From Phyllobacteriaceae bacterium (GTDB taxonomy: Bacteria; Pseudomonadota; Alphaproteobacteria; Rhizobiales; Rhizobiaceae), in contig PAPF01000007.1 of NCBI GenBank assembly GCA_002708825.1, positions 376,776-440,775 of the forward strand: 64,000 bases of DNA, given 5' to 3'. A program made the position numbers and the translations under genes. The notes under the pieces were generated by a model. That model was not told where the DNA came from. It did not search any database and saw nothing but the letters and a program-made list of their open reading frames with translations. How positions within the stretch are numbered: the first letter of the stretch is position 1; each line of letters opens with the position of its first letter. Below are positions 7,461-22,817 of this stretch, piece by piece.

Positions 7461-8795
7461 ATGCCCGCCGCCCGCCTGCCCGTTGCAACCATTGTCGCCT
7501 ATGGCCTTCCGGCCATGCCGGTGGCGGCGCTGACATTGCCGCTCTACGTCGTGGTGCCGACTTTCTATTCGGAGACCGTCGGCCTGCCATTGGCCATGGT
7601 CGGCGCCATCCTGGTGGCCGTACGCCTGTTCGATGCGGTCAACGATCCGCTGTTCGGCTGGCTGGGCGACCGGATGGGCAACGGCTTCGGCCGCCGCCGC
7701 ACCATGGTCGCACTGGCCCTGCCGGTCACCGCTTTTGCGGCGTGGAAGCTGTTTGCCCCGCCACCGGACGCCACCGGCGCCTATCTCGGCCTCTGGATGG
7801 CCATCCTGACTGCCGCGCTCAGCGCCATGCTGCTGTCCTGGTCGGCCTGGGGGGCGGAACTGGCCGGCGGCTATCGCGAGCGCAGCCGCATCACCGGCTG
7901 GCGCGAATCCTTCACCGTCATCGGCACGCTGGCGGCCATCGCCATTCCCTTTGCAATGTCGGAAGGCGATGATATCGGCCGCGAGGGCATGGCGGCGCTC
8001 GGCTTGGCCGTTGCCGGCAGCCTGATGGTATTCGGCGCGTTGAGCCTGCTGGCGGTGCCTGAACCGGTGGATCATTCCGTGACCCGCCTTGCCTTGCGCC
8101 AGAGCCTTGCCGCCATGGCCGCCAACAAACCGTTTCTCAGGCTCATCATTGCCTATTTCGTGAACGGGCTCGCCAACGGGATCCCGGCAACGCTTTTTCT
8201 CTATTTCGTGTCCGCCCGGCTTGGCGCGCCGGACATGCGCGGCCCGCTTCTGTTCCTCTATTTCTTTTGCGGACTGGCCGGCGTGCCCGCCGCCACATGG
8301 CTCGCCGGACGCATCGGCAAGCACCGCGCCTGGTCGTTTGCCATGATCCTGGCCTGCGCCGTGTTCGCCTTCGCACCGTTGATCGGAACGGGCGACATCG
8401 TCGCCTTCGGCGCGGTCTGCATCGTCACCGGCTTCGTGCTCGGCTTCGATCTGGCCTTGCCGCCCTCCATACAGGCCGACGTGATCGACGCTGACACCGC
8501 CGCGTCCGGTGCGCAGCGTTCGGGCATCTATTTTGCCGCCTGGAGCCTGGCGACCAAGCTGTCGCTTGCCGCCGGCGCGGGAATTGCCTTCCCGCTGTTG
8601 TCGCTTTCAGGCTTTGATCCGGCTGCGGGTGCGGCAAATTCCTCTTCGTCGCTGTTCGTTCTGGCCGCGCTCTATGCCTGGGCACCGGTGGGGCTGAAGC
8701 TGCTGGCCGTGGCGCTGATGTGGTCTTTCCCGCTGGATGAGGCGGGACAGGCCGAGGCCCGCCAGCGCATCGAGACGCGCGGCAGGCTGGCCTGA
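7461..8795 (+). CDS. MFS transporter, GPH/MelB-like
   Basis: NDPLFGWLGDRMGNGFGRRRTMV is a GPH-family signature; 12 TM. ORF opens at 7404; start set at MPAARLPVATIVAYG. Confidence 0.82.
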   Translation: MPAARLPVATIVAYGLPAMPVAALTLPLYVVVPTFYSETVGLPLAMVGAILVAVRLFDAVNDPLFGWLGDRMGNGFGRRRTMVALALPVTAFAAWKLFAPPPDATGAYLGLWMAILTAALSAMLLSWSAWGAELAGGYRERSRITGWRESFTVIGTLAAIAIPFAMSEGDDIGREGMAALGLAVAGSLMVFGALSLLAVPEPVDHSVTRLALRQSLAAMAANKPFLRLIIAYFVNGLANGIPATLFLYFVSARLGAPDMRGPLLFLYFFCGLAGVPAATWLAGRIGKHRAWSFAMILACAVFAFAPLIGTGDIVAFGAVCIVTGFVLGFDLALPPSIQADVIDADTAASGAQRSGIYFAAWSLATKLSLAAGAGIAFPLLSLSGFDPAAGAANSSSSLFVLAALYAWAPVGLKLLAVALMWSFPLDEAGQAEARQRIETRGRLA

Positions 8796-8809: not shown

Positions 8810-9610
8810 TCAGTCGCGCAGCGGGCGCCGGTTCCAGCCCATGGCCCGCTTCATGACCGGAAAATAAAGTCCCCAGGGAAGCAGGTTGATGGCCTTGAGG
8901 AGGAAGGCGAATCGGCGCGGGAAGGCGGTCTCGAAGCCGCCGCGTTCCAGGCCCGTGACGATCCGCCCGGCAGCATCGCCGGAATCCATGAGGAAAGGCA
9001 TGGGAAAGCGGTTCTGTTCGGTCAGCGGCGTGTCGACGAAGCCCGGATTGAACACCTGGAGCCGGATGTTCATCTTGTCGAAGTCGAACTTCAACGATTG
9101 CGCCATGTAATTGACCGCCGCCTTCGAACCGCCATAGGCCGAGGCCAGCGGAAGGCCGCCATAGGCGGATACGGAGCCGACGATGCCGACCTGACCGCGT
9201 CCGCGCCCGCGCATGTGTTCGGCCACCGGAACCAGTCCGTTGAGCACGCCGAACAGGTTGACCTCATAGGTCTTGCGGAATTTTTCCGGGTCGGGCTTTT
9301 CCCCTTGAACGGGCCAGTAATTTCCGGCCACGAACAGGGCGAGCGCGATCGGCCCGTGCGTGTCCTCCAGCGTCCGCACCAGGTCCGCCATGGCCGCGGC
9401 GTCCGTCGTGTCGCAGGGGGCGGGGATGATGGACCCCTCCAGCGCCGCAGCCGCGTCTGCCAGGTCGTCGAGCTTGCCGGCGCTGCGCGCCGTCGCGACA
9501 ACCCGCCAGCCCTTTGCCGCCATTTGCAGGGCGACCTCGCGTCCGATTCCGCTGGACGCGCCGGTGATCCAGGCGATGCCGTCTTGCGGCTTCGCGCGAT
9601 AGTCACTCAT
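8810..9610 (-). CDS. SDR-family oxidoreductase (type often linked to RpoE/ChrR gene clusters)
   Basis: TGASSGIG cofactor motif, SAYGGSKAAV (YxxxK) catalytic motif; C-terminal LPWGLYFPVMKRAMGW. Confidence 0.85.
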   Translation of the reverse strand: MSDYRAKPQDGIAWITGASSGIGREVALQMAAKGWRVVATARSAGKLDDLADAAAALEGSIIPAPCDTTDAAAMADLVRTLEDTHGPIALALFVAGNYWPVQGEKPDPEKFRKTYEVNLFGVLNGLVPVAEHMRGRGRGQVGIVGSVSAYGGLPLASAYGGSKAAVNYMAQSLKFDFDKMNIRLQVFNPGFVDTPLTEQNRFPMPFLMDSGDAAGRIVTGLERGGFETAFPRRFAFLLKAINLLPWGLYFPVMKRAMGWNRRPLRD

Positions 9611-9650: not shown

Positions 9651-9679
9651 AAGAAGGCCCGCCGGTTTCCCGGCGGGCA
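9651..9679 (-). terminator. Rho-independent terminator of the ChrR-like gene
   Basis: 9-bp stem GCCCGCCGG/CCGGCGGGC (9658-9666/9671-9679), followed on the minus strand by CCTTCTTTTTC. Confidence 0.75.
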
Positions 9680-9704: not shown

Positions 9705-10355
9705 TCAGGCCAGAAGGATGTCGGACAGGCGCTGGCCGATGGAACCGGTCAGCCGCAACGGGCCGTCGGTGACGGCCATGCCGATGCAAGGGGTCGTCTT
9801 CTCGGCGATCGGGCGGTGATCCACCGTCTCGTCGTTGACGGAAATGTCGCCGCGCGCATAGCGCCCGGTGTCGTCGTTGAAGGCGCCATCGAGGACGAGC
9901 GACAGTTCCATGCCTTCGTGGGTGTGCTTGGGGATCGCGCGGCCCGGCTTGATCCAGAACAGTTCGACGTGGCAGCCGTCGATCTCGCCCAGCTCGAAGT
10001 CCCGGAAACCGGGCATTTTCGTCTTCCACGGAATTTCGTCAGCAGTCATGCCGATGAAGCCCGCGATGGCGCGCGGCAGCAGACCGTCGGAAGACACCGC
10101 GCGCGGCAGCCGTATTTCCGGAGCGCGCGATGCGAAGATGCGTTCCAGGCATGCATCGGCGCCGTGAATCGGCGCCGGCTCCATGTGTTCCAGCACGTCC
10201 CCGGCGAGCGTCTCGAGACCGTTGACCATGCTCCGGTTAACCGGTGAGATTTCCAGATGGGCATCGACCAGCACACGCGCGGGCTCCGGTAGCAGCCCGG
10301 ACACGTAGCGCGCCAGAAGGGCGTCGATGCGTTCCTGTGTTTCCGTGTTCTTCAA
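9705..10355 (-). CDS. ChrR-like cupin protein (anti-sigma-factor family, degenerate zinc-binding N-terminus)
   Basis: 216 aa; N-terminal DALLARYVSGLLPEPARVLVDAHLEISPVNR aligns by eye to ChrR ZAS domains; C-terminal cupin PKHTHEGMELSLVLDGAFNDDTGRYARGDI…DHRPIAE. Confidence 0.82.
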   Translation of the reverse strand: MKNTETQERIDALLARYVSGLLPEPARVLVDAHLEISPVNRSMVNGLETLAGDVLEHMEPAPIHGADACLERIFASRAPEIRLPRAVSSDGLLPRAIAGFIGMTADEIPWKTKMPGFRDFELGEIDGCHVELFWIKPGRAIPKHTHEGMELSLVLDGAFNDDTGRYARGDISVNDETVDHRPIAEKTTPCIGMAVTDGPLRLTGSIGQRLSDILLA

Positions 10356-10412: not shown

Positions 10413-10442
10413 GATCTACGCTGTTCTGCGCAATCCGGATCA
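10413..10442 (-). promoter_or_regulatory. Putative RpoE(ChrR)-type ECF sigma promoter
   Basis: Minus strand reads TGATCC-N18-TAGATC about 58-87 nt upstream of the ChrR-like start codon; resembles the TGATCC/TAAGA-type sigma-E promoter of Rhodobacter. Confidence 0.5.
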
Positions 10443-10580: not shown

Positions 10581-11618
10581 ATGACCGCGTCAGTACTTGA
10601 GTGCATCGGCAATACGCCGCTGATCCGCTTGCGCAAGGCGTCCGAGCAAACCGGATGCGAGATTTACGGCAAGGCGGAGTTCATGAATCCGGGCCAGTCG
10701 GTCAAGGATCGCGCCGGCCTGTTCATCGTTCGTGACGCTGAAAAGCGCGGCCTGCTGGAACCCGGCGGCCTGATCGTGGAAGGCACCGCCGGCAATACCG
10801 GCATCGGCCTGACCGTCGTCGCCAAGGCGCTCGGCTATCGCACCGTCATCGTGATTCCCGAGACCCAGAGCCAGGAAAAGAAGGACGCGCTTCGGGTGCT
10901 GGGCGCCGAACTGATCGAGGTTCCCGCCGTCCCCTATCGCAATCCCAACAACTACGTGAAGGTCTCGGGCCGGCTCGCCGCGAAACTGGCCGAGAGCAGC
11001 CCGCATGGTGCCATCTGGGCCAACCAGTTCGACAACATCGCCAACCGGGATGGCCATGTCGCGACCACGGCTGAGGAAATCTGGGCACAGACGGGCGGCA
11101 AGGTGGACGGTTTCGTCGCTGCGGTCGGCACAGGCGGCACCCTGGCCGGCGTTGCCATGGGTCTCAAGGCGCGCAATGCGGACGTGAAGGTGGCACTCGC
11201 CGACCCGATGGGCGCGGCGCTTTACAGCTACTACACGACCGGCGAGATGAAGTCGGAAGGCGCGTCCATCACCGAGGGCATCGGCCAGGGGCGCATTACC
11301 GCGAACCTGGAAGGCTTCACCCCGGATTTCGCCTTCCAGATCGGCGATGAGGAGGCATTGCCCGTCGTTTTCGATCTGGTGCAGGAGGAAGGGCTGTGCC
11401 TTGGCGGATCGTCGGGCATCAACATCGCCGGCGCCATGCGCCTGGCCCGCGAACTCGGCCCCGGCCATACCATCGTGACGATCCTGTGCGACTATGGCAC
11501 GCGCTACCAGTCCAAGCTGTTCAACCCGGATTTCCTGCGGTCGAAGGACTTGCCGTTTCCGGCCTGGATGGAAGCGAAGAGCGACATTGCCGTCCCCTTC
11601 GAGGATGCCGAGGCATGA
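10581..11618 (+). CDS. cysK: Cysteine synthase A
   Basis: NPGQSVKDRAGLFIVRDAE PLP motif; EGTAGNTGIGL; VGTGGTLAGVA. Confidence 0.88.
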   Translation: MTASVLECIGNTPLIRLRKASEQTGCEIYGKAEFMNPGQSVKDRAGLFIVRDAEKRGLLEPGGLIVEGTAGNTGIGLTVVAKALGYRTVIVIPETQSQEKKDALRVLGAELIEVPAVPYRNPNNYVKVSGRLAAKLAESSPHGAIWANQFDNIANRDGHVATTAEEIWAQTGGKVDGFVAAVGTGGTLAGVAMGLKARNADVKVALADPMGAALYSYYTTGEMKSEGASITEGIGQGRITANLEGFTPDFAFQIGDEEALPVVFDLVQEEGLCLGGSSGINIAGAMRLARELGPGHTIVTILCDYGTRYQSKLFNPDFLRSKDLPFPAWMEAKSDIAVPFEDAEA

Positions 11619-16780: not shown

Positions 16781-18034
16781 TCACGCCCGGTAGACCACCT
16801 GCCGCACGTCGATATATTCGCTGCGGAATCCCGCCTCGCAATAATGCAGGTAGAACTCCCACAGCCTGCGGAAGCGCAGGTCGAAGCCAAGCGGCGCAAT
16901 GCGGTCCCAGGCACGGTGGAAGCGCTCGCGCCATTCCGCCAGCGTGCGGGCGTAGTCCTGGGGAAACAGCCGCTCGTGGATATAGTCCAACCCGGCCGCC
17001 TTGCCCTGGCGGACCAGTTCGGTAGGCGAGGGGAGCATGCCGCCGGGAAAGACGTAGCGCTGGATGAAGTCCGGCCGCTTCCGGTAAAGCGGAAAGGCAT
17101 CGTCATTGATGGTGATGATCTGCATTCCGGCCGTTCCGCCAGGCTTGAGCACCTGCTTCACCTTTGAGAAGAAGACCGGCCAGTATTCCTCGCCCACAGC
17201 CTCGAACATCTCGACCGACGCGATGCGGTCATAGCGGCCGGCCTCGTCGCGGTAGTCCTGGAAGCGGATTTCCACCCGGTCCGAAAGCCCTGCCTCATGG
17301 ATGCGGCGCGATGCGAATTCGTGCTGCTCGCGGCTGATCGTGAGCGCGGTCACGCGCGCGCCGGCCTTGCCGGCCTGTTCTGCAAAGCCGCCCCAGCCGC
17401 AACCGATTTCGAGAACGTGGTCGCCCGGACGGATGCCCGTGTCGTCGATCAGCGCCTGGTACTTGGCGCGCTGCGCCGAGGCGAGGTCGTTGGCACCGGT
17501 GGAATAGAGCGCGGAGGAATAGGTCATCGTCTCATCGAGCCATTCGCGGTAGAAGGCATTGCCGAGATCGTAGTGCGCGGCGATGTTGCGCCGCGACCCG
17601 CTGCGGGAATTGCGGTTGAACCAGTGGCGAAGCCGGTGCAGCGCGCTCAAGAGGGCCGATCCGCCGGCCAGTTTCTCGCCTTCCTCGGTGTTGACGATGA
17701 AAAGCTCCAGGAACGAGGTCACGTCCGGGCTTTCCCAGTCGCCGGCCATGTAGGTTTCCGCCACGCCGATCGTCCCGCCGGTGATCGCGCGCATCGGCAG
17801 GTTCCAGTTGTGCAGGATCACCTGTGCGTCCGGGCCGGGGCCGTTGCCGCCCACCTTGATGGCGCGTCCGTCGGGCATGCGGATGGCAAGCGAGCCGCGC
17901 GGCAGGTTGACCAGCGTCTTGAGCACGGCCCTGATCCGCGCCGGAACGCCGCGCGCCAAGTCCGCCACGTCGCCCGCGCTGGTCAGGCGTACCGCACCAT
18001 CGAAAGCATCGCCCGCCGTGTGCTCATGCGCCAT
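16781..18034 (-). CDS. Cyclopropane-fatty-acyl-phospholipid synthase family SAM-dependent methyltransferase
   Basis: HYDLGNAFYREWLDETMTYSSALY; VLEIGCGWGGFAE; SVEMFEAVGEEYWPVFF. Confidence 0.9.
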   Translation of the reverse strand: MAHEHTAGDAFDGAVRLTSAGDVADLARGVPARIRAVLKTLVNLPRGSLAIRMPDGRAIKVGGNGPGPDAQVILHNWNLPMRAITGGTIGVAETYMAGDWESPDVTSFLELFIVNTEEGEKLAGGSALLSALHRLRHWFNRNSRSGSRRNIAAHYDLGNAFYREWLDETMTYSSALYSTGANDLASAQRAKYQALIDDTGIRPGDHVLEIGCGWGGFAEQAGKAGARVTALTISREQHEFASRRIHEAGLSDRVEIRFQDYRDEAGRYDRIASVEMFEAVGEEYWPVFFSKVKQVLKPGGTAGMQIITINDDAFPLYRKRPDFIQRYVFPGGMLPSPTELVRQGKAAGLDYIHERLFPQDYARTLAEWRERFHRAWDRIAPLGFDLRFRRLWEFYLHYCEAGFRSEYIDVRQVVYRA

Positions 18035-18095
18035 TTGTCACTCCTTGTCTGCCGGAAGCCGCTCGCCGGAACACTTCTTTTATTAGAGTAGCCTG

Positions 18096-18929
18096 TCATT
18101 CACCGGGTTCAAGGGCATGGCCTTTTGCCGGCGCCCCGTGCGATGGCGGGCTGGAATGAAAGCGGGCGCCCTTGAGCCAGAGTTTCAGCGCTTCCCAGTG
18201 GATGCCGCCGATGACCTTGAGTGTCATGAACGGCATTCTGAGCAGCAGCGCGGCGACCGTCGCCGTGTTCAGTGCCCGCGCCGTTCCGTTGAAGGTCGCA
18301 GCCAGCACCGGCGTCCCGTGTTCGGTCTCGTGGATGCGCAGGCGCGCCTCCCGCCCCGGCGGCATCACACGGAAATGGTAATGCGCATCCATGGAAATGA
18401 AGGGCGAGACGTGGAACAGCTTGGGCTGGTCCTGGCGCAGGCCTGCCGGCGAAAGCTCGCCCGGCGCCACCGGAACCACGTAATCATGGTGGCCGCCGAA
18501 GGTATTGCTGACCGCATAGATGACGGCGATGAGCCTGCCGTCCGCGGCATGGCAAAACCACGTCGAGATGGGATTGAAGACACGGCCGAACATGCGCGGA
18601 TAGGTCATGAGCAGGATGCGCGCGGCCGGCTCGCCGACCCCGGCGCGGGCCAGAAGCGTGTCTGCCTGGCTGCGCAGCGTGGCAAACCCCTCGCGCAGGT
18701 GATCGCTGGCGTGGAAGGACACCGGCGCGGCGCGGTTGACCCCGAACAGCGGTGACAGGCGGCCGGCCTCTTCCAGACGGTCGATGTCGATGACGAGGCT
18801 GGTCACGCCATAGGTGAAGCGGTGCCCGAAGGGTTTGAGCCGGTGATGCATGACCTGGCCAGCATAGAGCGTGGCCGCGGCTTCCGGCGGCGGGCCATTG
18901 TCCTGCAGGTTCCTGGCGCGTGTCTTCAT
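18096..18929 (-). CDS. DUF1365 family protein
   Basis: ATLYAGQVMHHRLKPFGHRFTYGVTSLVIDID; RMFGRVFNPISTWFCH; GHHDYVVP. Start at MKTRARNLQ. Confidence 0.85.
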   Translation of the reverse strand: MKTRARNLQDNGPPPEAAATLYAGQVMHHRLKPFGHRFTYGVTSLVIDIDRLEEAGRLSPLFGVNRAAPVSFHASDHLREGFATLRSQADTLLARAGVGEPAARILLMTYPRMFGRVFNPISTWFCHAADGRLIAVIYAVSNTFGGHHDYVVPVAPGELSPAGLRQDQPKLFHVSPFISMDAHYHFRVMPPGREARLRIHETEHGTPVLAATFNGTARALNTATVAALLLRMPFMTLKVIGGIHWEALKLWLKGARFHSSPPSHGAPAKGHALEPGE

Positions 18930-18946
18930 GGTCGTGGGCCTTCCGT

Positions 18947-20284
18947 TCACTCGGCCGCCACAAGGCTGTCGCCGGCGGGCATGGCCGGTTCGCGCCACGG
19001 GATGACGGCGCCGAGTTGCTCTGCCGCGGCAAGGCCGGATTTCAGGCCGTCCTCGTGGAAGCCGTAGCCGGTCCAGGCGCCGGCAAACCACGTGTTGCGG
19101 ACGCCCTGCAATGCAGGCAATGCACGCTGGGCGGCAAGCGCTGCGGCATCGAATTGCGGATGGGCATAGCTGTATTCGCCGAACAGGGTTCCCGGCTTCG
19201 GCTCGCGCGGCGGATTGAGCGACACGAACAGGGGCGTGTTCGCATCGATGCCCTGCAGCTTGTTCATCCAGTAGGTCACGGCGACATCGGAAGAGCCGTC
19301 GTCACGGCTGTCGCGCAGGTAGTTCCATGCCGCCCATGCGTGGCGGCGGCGCGGCATCAGGCTCTGGTCGCGATGCAGCAGCACGCGGTTGTCGCGGTAG
19401 CCGACGGCCGAAAGGACCGATGTTTCCGCTGGCGACGGGTCCGCCAGCATGGCGAGCGCCTGGTCGGAATGGGTGGCGATGACCACGGCGTCGTAGCGCT
19501 CGGCGCCGCGGGCCGTGGCGATCCGCACGCCTCCGCCCTCGCGATGGATCGAGACGACCGGTTCGCCAAGCCGTATGCGCCCGGCGAGCGGGGCCAGCAG
19601 CTTGTCGAGATAGGTGCGCGCGCCGCCCTTGACCGTGCGCCAGACCGGCCGCTCGAAATCGATCAGGCGGTGGTTCTCGAAGAAGGTGATGAAGGTTTCC
19701 GCCGGAAAGTCGAGCATGCGGATGCGCGGCGTCGACCAGATCGCGGCCGCCATGGGGATGAGGTAATCGTCGACGAACCGGTCTGAGAAACCGCGCAGCT
19801 TGAGATAGTTGCCGATGCTGATGCCGGCGAGCAGCCCGGCTGCCTTGTCCTCGCGGCACTGCCGGTTGAAGCGCAGGATCTCGCGCAGCATCCACAGGAA
19901 AGGCACCGAGACGACGTTGCGGCGCTGGGCGAAGACCTGGGTCAGCGACGAACCGCACCATTCCAGCCGCCCGTTGTCGAGCGACAGTGCGAAACCCATG
20001 TCGCTTTCGACCGTTTCGACGTCGAGATGGCGGAAGAGGGCCGTCAGGTTCGGATAATTCAGCTCGTTGTAGACGATGAATCCGGTATCGACGCTGATCG
20101 GTGTGCCGTCATAGTCGATGTCGACCGTCGCGGTGTGGCCACCGGCACGCGCGCCTGCCTCGTACAGCGTCACATCGGCGCCGCTTGAAAGCGCCCATGC
20201 TGCCGAGGCGCCCGAAATCCCGGACCCGATCACCGCAATGCGCCGCCCCCGCGGCAACGTGAATTCCGTCTTGTGAATGGTCAT
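18947..20284 (-). CDS. NAD(P)/FAD-dependent oxidoreductase (amine-oxidase-like) of the DUF1365/CfaS cluster type
   Basis: RIAVIGSGISGASAAWALSSGADVTLYEAGARAGGHTATVDIDYDGTPISVDTGFIVYNELNYPNL; 4-nt overlap with the photolyase gene. Confidence 0.88.
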   Translation of the reverse strand: MTIHKTEFTLPRGRRIAVIGSGISGASAAWALSSGADVTLYEAGARAGGHTATVDIDYDGTPISVDTGFIVYNELNYPNLTALFRHLDVETVESDMGFALSLDNGRLEWCGSSLTQVFAQRRNVVSVPFLWMLREILRFNRQCREDKAAGLLAGISIGNYLKLRGFSDRFVDDYLIPMAAAIWSTPRIRMLDFPAETFITFFENHRLIDFERPVWRTVKGGARTYLDKLLAPLAGRIRLGEPVVSIHREGGGVRIATARGAERYDAVVIATHSDQALAMLADPSPAETSVLSAVGYRDNRVLLHRDQSLMPRRRHAWAAWNYLRDSRDDGSSDVAVTYWMNKLQGIDANTPLFVSLNPPREPKPGTLFGEYSYAHPQFDAAALAAQRALPALQGVRNTWFAGAWTGYGFHEDGLKSGLAAAEQLGAVIPWREPAMPAGDSLVAAE

Positions 20285-21747
20285 GCTTCTCCCCGCATGG
20301 TCTTGTAGGCTTCAAGGGCGCTGTCCCGGGCCTGCTGGTGATCGACCAGCGGCGCCGGATAGGTTTCGCCGAGCGTCACGCCGGCCTTTTCCAGAAGGTC
20401 CTGCCCCGCTTGCCAGGGCTTGTGGATCCTGTCGGCGGGCATCGCCTCCAGTTCCGGTACGAAGCGGCGCACATAGTCGCCCTGCGTGTCGAACTTCTCG
20501 CCCTGCAGGATCGGGTTGAAAATCCGGAAATAGGGTGCCGCGTCGGCGCCCGAGCCCGCGACCCATTGCCAGCTTGCCGGATTGTTGGCCGGGTCGGCAT
20601 CCACCAGCGTGTCCCAGAACCATTGTTCCCCGTGGCGCCAGTGCACGCGCAGATGCTTGATGAGGAACGAGGCGGCGGCCATGCGCACGCGATTGTGCAT
20701 CCAGCCGGTCTGCCAGAGCTGGCGCATGCCGGCATCGATGATCGGATAGCCGGTCTGGCCCTTCTGCCACTTTTCCAGCCGGTCGCCCATCGGTCCCCAG
20801 GGAAAGGCGTCGAAATCACTGTTGAAGTTTCTCGTGGCAAGGTCCGGATTGTGGAACAGGAGATGGTAGCTGAACTCGCGCCAGCCCACTTCCTTGCGGA
20901 AATGCTCGATGTCCTTGGCCCGCGCATCGATCTGCGCCCGGTCCTCGATGGCCTGGAAGATCTGCCAGGGCGTGATTTCCCCGTGCGCGAGATAAGGCGA
21001 AAGGCGCGAGGTGCTCTCGATGTCCGGCCGGTCGCGCTCGTCGCGATAGCCCTTGATCGCGCCATCCAGGAAATCGGAGAGCAGGCGGTGTGCATGATCC
21101 TCGCCGGGCTTCCATGTCTCGCGCAGGCCGCCGGCCCAGTCGGGCTTCACCGGCAGGAGCCCCCAGTCGTCGAGGTTTTCCGATGTCACCTTGCCCTCGT
21201 ACGGGCGCAGTTCACGCGGCGCGCTTGCCGGGCGCTGGAGTTCGAAGCCGGCGACGAAGGCGCGCCAGAAAGGCGAGTAGACCTTGTAAATTCCGCCGGA
21301 GCCGGTCTTCAGCTGCCAAGGTTCGTGCAGCAGTGCGCCGGCGAAGCTCTCCGCATGCAGCCCGCGCTCCTTGAGCGAGGCCTTGATTTCCGAATCGGCC
21401 TCCATGCCGCCCGGATCGTAGCGCCGGTTCCACAGCACCATGTCGGCGCCGGTCTCTTCGATGAGCGATTCCACCACGTCGCGCTGGATGCCCGAACGCA
21501 TCGAAAGCCGCGATCCAGCCTTCTCCAACGAGGAACCAAGCGAGACGAGCGAATGGTGAAGCCACCACAGCCACGCGGCCCCAGGTGCGCGAAAGCGCGG
21601 ACCACCGGTCTCGCGGACGAAGACGGGCACCACCGGCTTGCCGCTTCGCGCGGCCGCGTCGAGCGCCGCGTTGCCGGCCAGCCGCAGGTCGTTGCGGAAA
21701 AGGACGAGGACGGGGCGGTCTTGATGGGTATCGTGCTTGAAGGCCAT
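20281..21747 (-). CDS. Deoxyribodipyrimidine photo-lyase (cryptochrome/photolyase family)
   Basis: VLVLFRNDLRLAGNAALDAAARSG; GWREFSYHLLFHNPDLATRNFNSDFDAFPW; DAGMRQLWQTGWMHNRVRMAAASFLIKHL; WHW-type W…NPASWQWVAGSGADAAPYFRIFNP. Confidence 0.92.
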   Translation of the reverse strand: MAFKHDTHQDRPVLVLFRNDLRLAGNAALDAAARSGKPVVPVFVRETGGPRFRAPGAAWLWWLHHSLVSLGSSLEKAGSRLSMRSGIQRDVVESLIEETGADMVLWNRRYDPGGMEADSEIKASLKERGLHAESFAGALLHEPWQLKTGSGGIYKVYSPFWRAFVAGFELQRPASAPRELRPYEGKVTSENLDDWGLLPVKPDWAGGLRETWKPGEDHAHRLLSDFLDGAIKGYRDERDRPDIESTSRLSPYLAHGEITPWQIFQAIEDRAQIDARAKDIEHFRKEVGWREFSYHLLFHNPDLATRNFNSDFDAFPWGPMGDRLEKWQKGQTGYPIIDAGMRQLWQTGWMHNRVRMAAASFLIKHLRVHWRHGEQWFWDTLVDADPANNPASWQWVAGSGADAAPYFRIFNPILQGEKFDTQGDYVRRFVPELEAMPADRIHKPWQAGQDLLEKAGVTLGETYPAPLVDHQQARDSALEAYKTMRGEA

Positions 21748-21981: not shown

Positions 21982-22056
21982 TGGCTCCCCGGGCCGGATT
22001 CGAACCAGCGACCAACCGGTTAACAGCCGGTTGCTCTACCACTGAGCTACCGGGGA
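21982..22056 (-). tRNA. tRNA-Asn (anticodon GTT), CCA encoded
   Basis: Reverse strand TCCCCGGTAGCTCAGTGGTAGAGCAACCGGCTGTTAACCGGTTGGTCGCTGGTTCGAATCCGGCCCGGGGAGCCA folds as a 75-nt cloverleaf. Confidence 0.96.
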
Positions 22057-22743: not shown

Positions 22744-22817
22744 GGCCTCGTGGCGGAGTGGTTACGCAGAGGACTGCAAATCCTTGCACCCCGGTTCGAT
22801 TCCGGGCGAGGCCTCCA
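22744..22817 (+). tRNA. tRNA-Cys (anticodon GCA), CCA encoded
   Basis: GGCCTCGTGGCGGAGTGGTTACGCAGAGGACTGCAAATCCTTGCACCCCGGTTCGATTCCGGGCGAGGCCTCCA. Confidence 0.96.

Follow-up and report, generated by a model that had tools for sequence, protein, structure and literature searches.

Zinc-ligand-less ChrR proteins of the order Hyphomicrobiales and their probable partnership with an unlinked ECF11 sigma factor

The best described relatives of the gene analyzed here belong to the ECF11 systems, among them the RpoE (sigma-E) and ChrR pair of R. sphaeroides, in which the usual rpoE-chrR operon makes sigma and anti-sigma factor rise together. The ECF11 promoter consensus TGATCC-N16-CGTA has been reported in P. 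syringae (PMC5507510) and in the same form in Shewanella (PMC4336711), and in R. sphaeroides rpoH2 is a direct ECF11 target (PMC6852236). The ChrR of R. sphaeroides has been reported to need zinc binding to inhibit sigma-E, and the role of the anti-sigma-domain zinc in the singlet-oxygen response has been described as unknown (PMC6852236). Furan fatty acids, which are made by UfaM and the DUF1365-containing UfaO (PMC7380195), have been linked to the turnover of ChrR in the same organism (PMC6852236). Among soluble class I anti-sigma factors about 28% are without the zinc motif, according to a survey that gathered only those in the genetic neighborhood of an ECF gene and that would therefore have missed any that are unlinked (PMC7406223).

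The window, a stretch of 64,000 nucleotides from a Phyllobacteriaceae bacterium, contains a chrR-like gene (9705..10355, (-)) that encodes a protein of 216 residues with a zinc-ligand-less anti-sigma domain (approximately residues 1-85) and an intact ChrR cupin domain. The reading frame starts with TTG, with an AGGGGA site 5' of the start, and directly 3' of the gene lies an intrinsic terminator (9657..9678, (-); 9 G-C pairs, then CTTCTTTTT) that was graded strong. Profile, sequence, and predicted fold all identify the protein as a homologue of ChrR. Its score against the NCBIfam ChrR family TIGR02451 (141.2 bits, cut-off 124.5) is above the cut-off, so the resemblance is not due to chance, the ChrR cupin model PF12973 matches it, and its best PDB sequence match by phmmer is the R. 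sphaeroides ChrR (2z2s, E = 6e-34). An AlphaFold model based on a 28-sequence alignment (pLDDT 91.7) has N-terminal helices and a cupin barrel, and each of its top six PDB matches is a ChrR chain. The ChrR architecture claimed for this gene in an earlier note, which was made from the sequence alone, is borne out by the family profile, by phmmer, and by the predicted fold, and so is its claim that the cupin site (domain at 9783..10049, (-)) has been kept: H144, H146, E150, and H180 are all present and correspond to H141, H143, E147, and H177 of ChrR.

The anti-sigma domain has lost three of the four zinc ligands of ChrR. By phmmer and by the clade alignment described below, H6, H31, C35, and C38 of ChrR correspond to E8 (10334-10332), H33 (10259-10257), S37 (10247-10245), and N40 (10238-10236) of the window protein (former zinc site, 10236..10334, (-)), with H33-LEI-S37-PV-N40 aligned by phmmer to H31-LSL-C35-DE-C38 of 2z2s. 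The protein thus lacks the ZAS pattern of H-x3-C-x2-C and an N-terminal histidine, just as the earlier note had it: both cysteines are replaced at exact spacing, and the position of ChrR His6 is occupied by E8. This loss extends across the order. Neither the chrR-like gene nor any of its 27 close homologues (36-83% identity, from 151 related genomes) encodes the cysteine pair, and a CxxC at the former site was found in 0/30 unlinked relatives and in 0/80 loci from 84,980 named genomes (Rhizobium, Hoeflea, Mesorhizobium, Nitratireductor, Ahrensia, Neorhizobium, and other genera) that were scanned with a profile from an 8-member alignment. The nearest named locus, in Zhengella mangrovi, lies on a contig also present in G001, a genome assigned to the window's own genus. 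None of the 110 clade members used below has the CxxC, and H144, H146, E150, H180, and C190 are invariant in all of them. The zinc-less ChrR forms a clade spanning the order Hyphomicrobiales, neither unique nor an orphan, and we reject a unique substitution or a sequencing error as the source of the change. Cysteine ligands supplied from elsewhere in the N-terminal domain, which the earlier note had named as one observation that would count against it, are likewise rejected from the 110-member alignment, where an N-terminal-domain cysteine of any kind occurs in only 19/110 members; C69 of the window protein is such a residue and is not conserved. One genome, G149, has a second unlinked ChrR (L102, G149:C11:78878-79498) in addition to its zinc-less one, and this second protein keeps the CxxC; its gene has TGATCC-N16-CGTA upstream and a DUF1365 gene approximately 2 kb away.

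The likely partner of the chrR-like protein is encoded elsewhere in the genome. Nine genes contain sigma-70 region 2, and one of these (G000:C16:142839-143396) encodes an ECF11 sigma, with R. sphaeroides RpoE as its best PDB match (E = 1e-48) and SigK as the next solved relative (8e-17). It is located on contig C16 and the chrR-like gene on C5, so that the anti-sigma gene does not lie directly downstream of the sigma gene, and a search of the genome gave no second ChrR. The earlier note was correct that no ECF sigma gene adjoins the chrR-like gene and that cysK is divergent from it, and the search for an rpoE-chrR pair that it recommended yielded a single ECF11 sigma on another contig with the window gene as the sole ChrR; its term orphan is not supported. 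Beside the sigma gene no anti-sigma gene was seen among neighbors that, from sequence reading rather than a profile search, we take to be ialB-like, rlmN-like, DUF1232-like, phhB-like, and thpR-like, and on that reading another anti-sigma gene next to sigma was rejected. The arrangement rlmN-like, ialB-like, sigma, DUF1232-like is conserved across the order. An unlinked ECF11 sigma is present in 31 of the 151 related genomes, and all of these but G053, a genome of 88% completeness, also have an unlinked zinc-less ChrR (30/31). Another 44 have an adjacent sigma and ChrR pair, the two arrangements never occur together (0/151), and a full-length ChrR is absent from all 76 ECF11-free genomes. These are raw counts that do not account for shared descent, and the same applies to the naive hypergeometric value of 8e-31 for the co-occurrence. 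The sigma tree and the ChrR tree each have one change between linked and unlinked forms, at the same place; the reference sequences of ChrR and RpoE from R. sphaeroides in the trees and alignment match the PDB alignments over the parts that those cover. The distances of sigma and ChrR are correlated after correction for three neighboring genes (partial r = 0.36, p = 0.012), with mirror-tree controls at approximately 0.1 or below and not significant.

An exact ECF11-type promoter (TGATCC-N16-CGTA, 10417..10442, (-)) is located 61 nt upstream of the start codon of the chrR-like gene. The autoregulatory promoter of ECF11 systems is therefore present in the window, but it precedes chrR and not sigma. 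The same distribution is seen in the relatives: linked genomes have the motif in front of the sigma-chrR operon (33/38), and unlinked ones have it in front of chrR (25/30; it was not found in G080, G047, G123, G111, and G150) and never in front of the sigma gene (0/31). At the named genome loci it precedes the chrR-like gene in 76/80 cases. The motif also precedes rpoH2 in 13 of the 22 unlinked genomes tested, including that of the window, where the site reads TGATCC-N15-CGTA and lies at -63 (L293, G000:C30:94057-94081, (-)). A motif scan of the window's genome gave 13 sites, several of them inside genes, compared with 2 in a reversed control. Decay of the chrR-like gene to a pseudogene was rejected, as promoter, start, terminator, and cupin are all intact. 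As a side observation, three genomes with an unlinked sigma (G080, G047, and G053; entries L073, L097, and L087) have no DUF1365 gene. G080 and G047 are also without the motif before chrR, G053 gave no chrR, and the circuit may be eroding in these three.

Part of the neighborhood is conserved as well. The downstream neighbor, a short-chain dehydrogenase gene (8810..9610, (-)), is kept in 24/28 loci, a convergent MFS_2 transporter gene (7464..8795, (+)) in 14/28, and the divergent gene for a cysK-like PLP enzyme (10581..11618, (+)), which is probably outside the system, in 26/28. Many unlinked genomes have the short-chain dehydrogenase gene after the chrR-like gene, which faces a cluster for the MFS transporter, a CMAS methylase, a DUF1365 protein, an amine oxidase, and a photolyase; a separate TGATCC promoter is often present at the distal end of this facing cluster. 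In the window's genome the photolyase, amine oxidase, DUF1365, and CMAS genes are separated from the chrR-like gene. They form a lipid and DNA repair cluster of the ECF11 type, encoding a UfaM-like CMAS-type fatty-acyl methylase (16781..18034, (-); PF02353), a DUF1365 protein resembling the furan fatty acid enzyme UfaO (18096..18935, (-); PF07103), a flavin amine-oxidase-like protein that is UfaD-like by position only (18947..20284, (-); PF01593), and a DNA photolyase (20281..21747, (-); PF00875 and PF03441). Unlike in the relatives, no ECF11 promoter was recognizable for this cluster (16781-21747, (-)). A tRNA-Asn(gtt) gene (21982-22056, (-)) lies just 5' of the photolyase gene, and a tRNA-Cys(gca) gene is found at 22744-22817 (+).

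Based on the co-inheritance and the promoter data, we put forward a mechanism in which the chrR-like gene quite probably encodes the trans-acting anti-sigma factor of the unlinked ECF11 sigma, a factor that functions without zinc, senses through its cupin, and provides negative feedback only. Specifically, the N-terminal four-helix domain would fold without zinc and would sequester the ECF11 sigma in the cytoplasm, the binding itself being one that we infer. The cupin, by analogy with the R. sphaeroides model, would sense or transmit a photo-oxidative or lipid-peroxide signal, with release of the sigma. Free sigma would then direct transcription from TGATCC-N15/16-CGTA sites, which are present upstream of rpoH2 and of the chrR-like gene, and the gene of the sigma itself would not be among its targets. 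Since the promoter lies before chrR and not before sigma, the feedback would be negative only, in contrast to the usual operon in that the brake alone is autoregulated. The need for zinc reported for R. sphaeroides ChrR counts against such a zinc-free mechanism. Further points against the proposal are the five unlinked genomes without the motif before chrR, the photolyase cluster of the window with no recognizable ECF11 promoter, and a mirror-tree value for the N-terminal domain alone that is not significant. Nevertheless, zinc-free inhibition is plausible, given that RseA and RskA inhibit without zinc and that some linked ChrRs have lost their ligands. Both zinc cysteines are gone from L149 (G109), L160 (G009), and L174 (G084), by events that are separate on the tree (one for G109 and G009, another for G084), which makes the loss compatible with anti-sigma service. 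One cysteine is gone from L164 (G063) and L171 (G018). The two explanations offered in the earlier note fare differently under this proposal. A sigma-independent cupin sensor or enzyme is not supported, in view of the 30/31 co-occurrence with sigma and the ECF11 promoter on the gene, whereas a ChrR paralogue with altered sigma binding comes close to what we propose in its altered sigma binding and fails in its paralogy, since the only ChrR of a genome is a sole partner.

The protein could instead be an enzyme or a binding protein of the cupin type, induced by stress as part of the ECF11 regulon and no longer able to bind sigma, and this we consider unlikely. It would explain why the zinc ligands are gone, why the gene has an ECF11 promoter as a regulon member would, and why the cupin metal site is invariant, and it would also fit the correlation with sigma being carried by the cupin, because the N-terminal domain alone gives r = 0.13 (p = 0.16, not significant). 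However, a known effector follows the sigma more loosely than ChrR does: DUF1365/UfaO, a core target of ECF11 and our control, is found in 28/31 unlinked, 40/44 linked, and 17/76 ECF11-free genomes, compared with the 30/31 and 0/76 of ChrR. Furthermore, the N-terminal domain is of full length and at equal cupin divergence is nearly as conserved as that of linked ChrRs (0.34 vs. 0.37 at 40-50% cupin identity), so it does not have the look of decay, and an effector would leave the sigma locus with no other anti-sigma gene in sight.

The trans-acting anti-sigma factor that we favor might also retain a metal by means of other ligands (e.g., D/E8, H33, and H/N40) and so be metal-dependent and thiol-free, a variant to which we assign a slightly smaller chance still. 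The residues at the four site positions of the 110 clade members are D/E (76%), H (93%), K/S/R, and N/H/S. The conserved histidine, the acid at position 8 in 84/110 members, and the combination D-H-K-H in 16 of 100 distinct sequences would all suit a metal site. The commonest residues at position 37, however, are K and R, which normally are no metal ligands and which accompany the acid at position 8, and in the window protein only E8 and H33 are plausible ligands. The pairing of K/R at 37 with an acid at 8 (56/76, vs. 9/22 with neither an acid nor a base at 8; Fisher p = 0.009, without correction for descent) hints, at the level of sequence, that an ionic contact has taken the place of the zinc staple, and the window protein with its E8/S37 pair does not itself display this pairing. 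Finally, it is highly improbable that the sigma is under transcriptional or other control and the chrR-like gene a relic, for which one could cite the loss of the ECF11 motif from the sigma promoter (0/31) and the class 33 ECF sigmas found in Bradyrhizobium and its relatives, which have no neighboring anti-sigma gene and are thought to be under transcriptional control (PMC3420878), but gene and promoter have been retained order-wide (76/80 and 25/30) and the reading frame has not decayed.

The trans-acting anti-sigma mechanism can be extended, although here we are speculating and would sooner expect some part of it to fail than the whole to hold. The zinc staple may have been exchanged for an acid-base contact (H6 to D/E, C35 to K/R), leaving a domain that would respond neither to thiol oxidation nor to singlet oxygen attacking a zinc site directly, so that all signals would pass via the cupin, with the sigma parted from its own promoter and under negative feedback only. 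The clade offers a natural experiment in which the zinc site is gone and the cupin is retained. The mechanism also predicts partners, order-wide, for apparently orphan ECF11 sigmas and ChrRs that neighborhood-based surveys would overlook, and it offers a simple circuit in which autoregulation acts on the brake and the sigma is not autoregulated.

How does this system compare with those already known? RseA and RskA have class I anti-sigma domains that inhibit ECF sigmas without zinc (PMC7406223), but they are not ChrR-cupin proteins. Closer are the linked zinc-less ChrRs of G109, G009, and G084, which have lost both cysteines at the same positions but still adjoin their sigma, that of G084 keeping both histidines. 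The closest characterized system is the ECF11 pair RpoE-ChrR of R. sphaeroides (2q1z, 2z2s), with which the window system has in common the ChrR profile, the predicted two-domain fold, the cupin ligands, the promoter type, and the rpoH2 target. In contrast to that pair, the window clade is without the anti-sigma zinc ligands, has Gly or Ala in place of the cupin Cys189 in most of its 110 members, and has its gene away from that of the sigma, with the promoter of the window system before the anti-sigma only.
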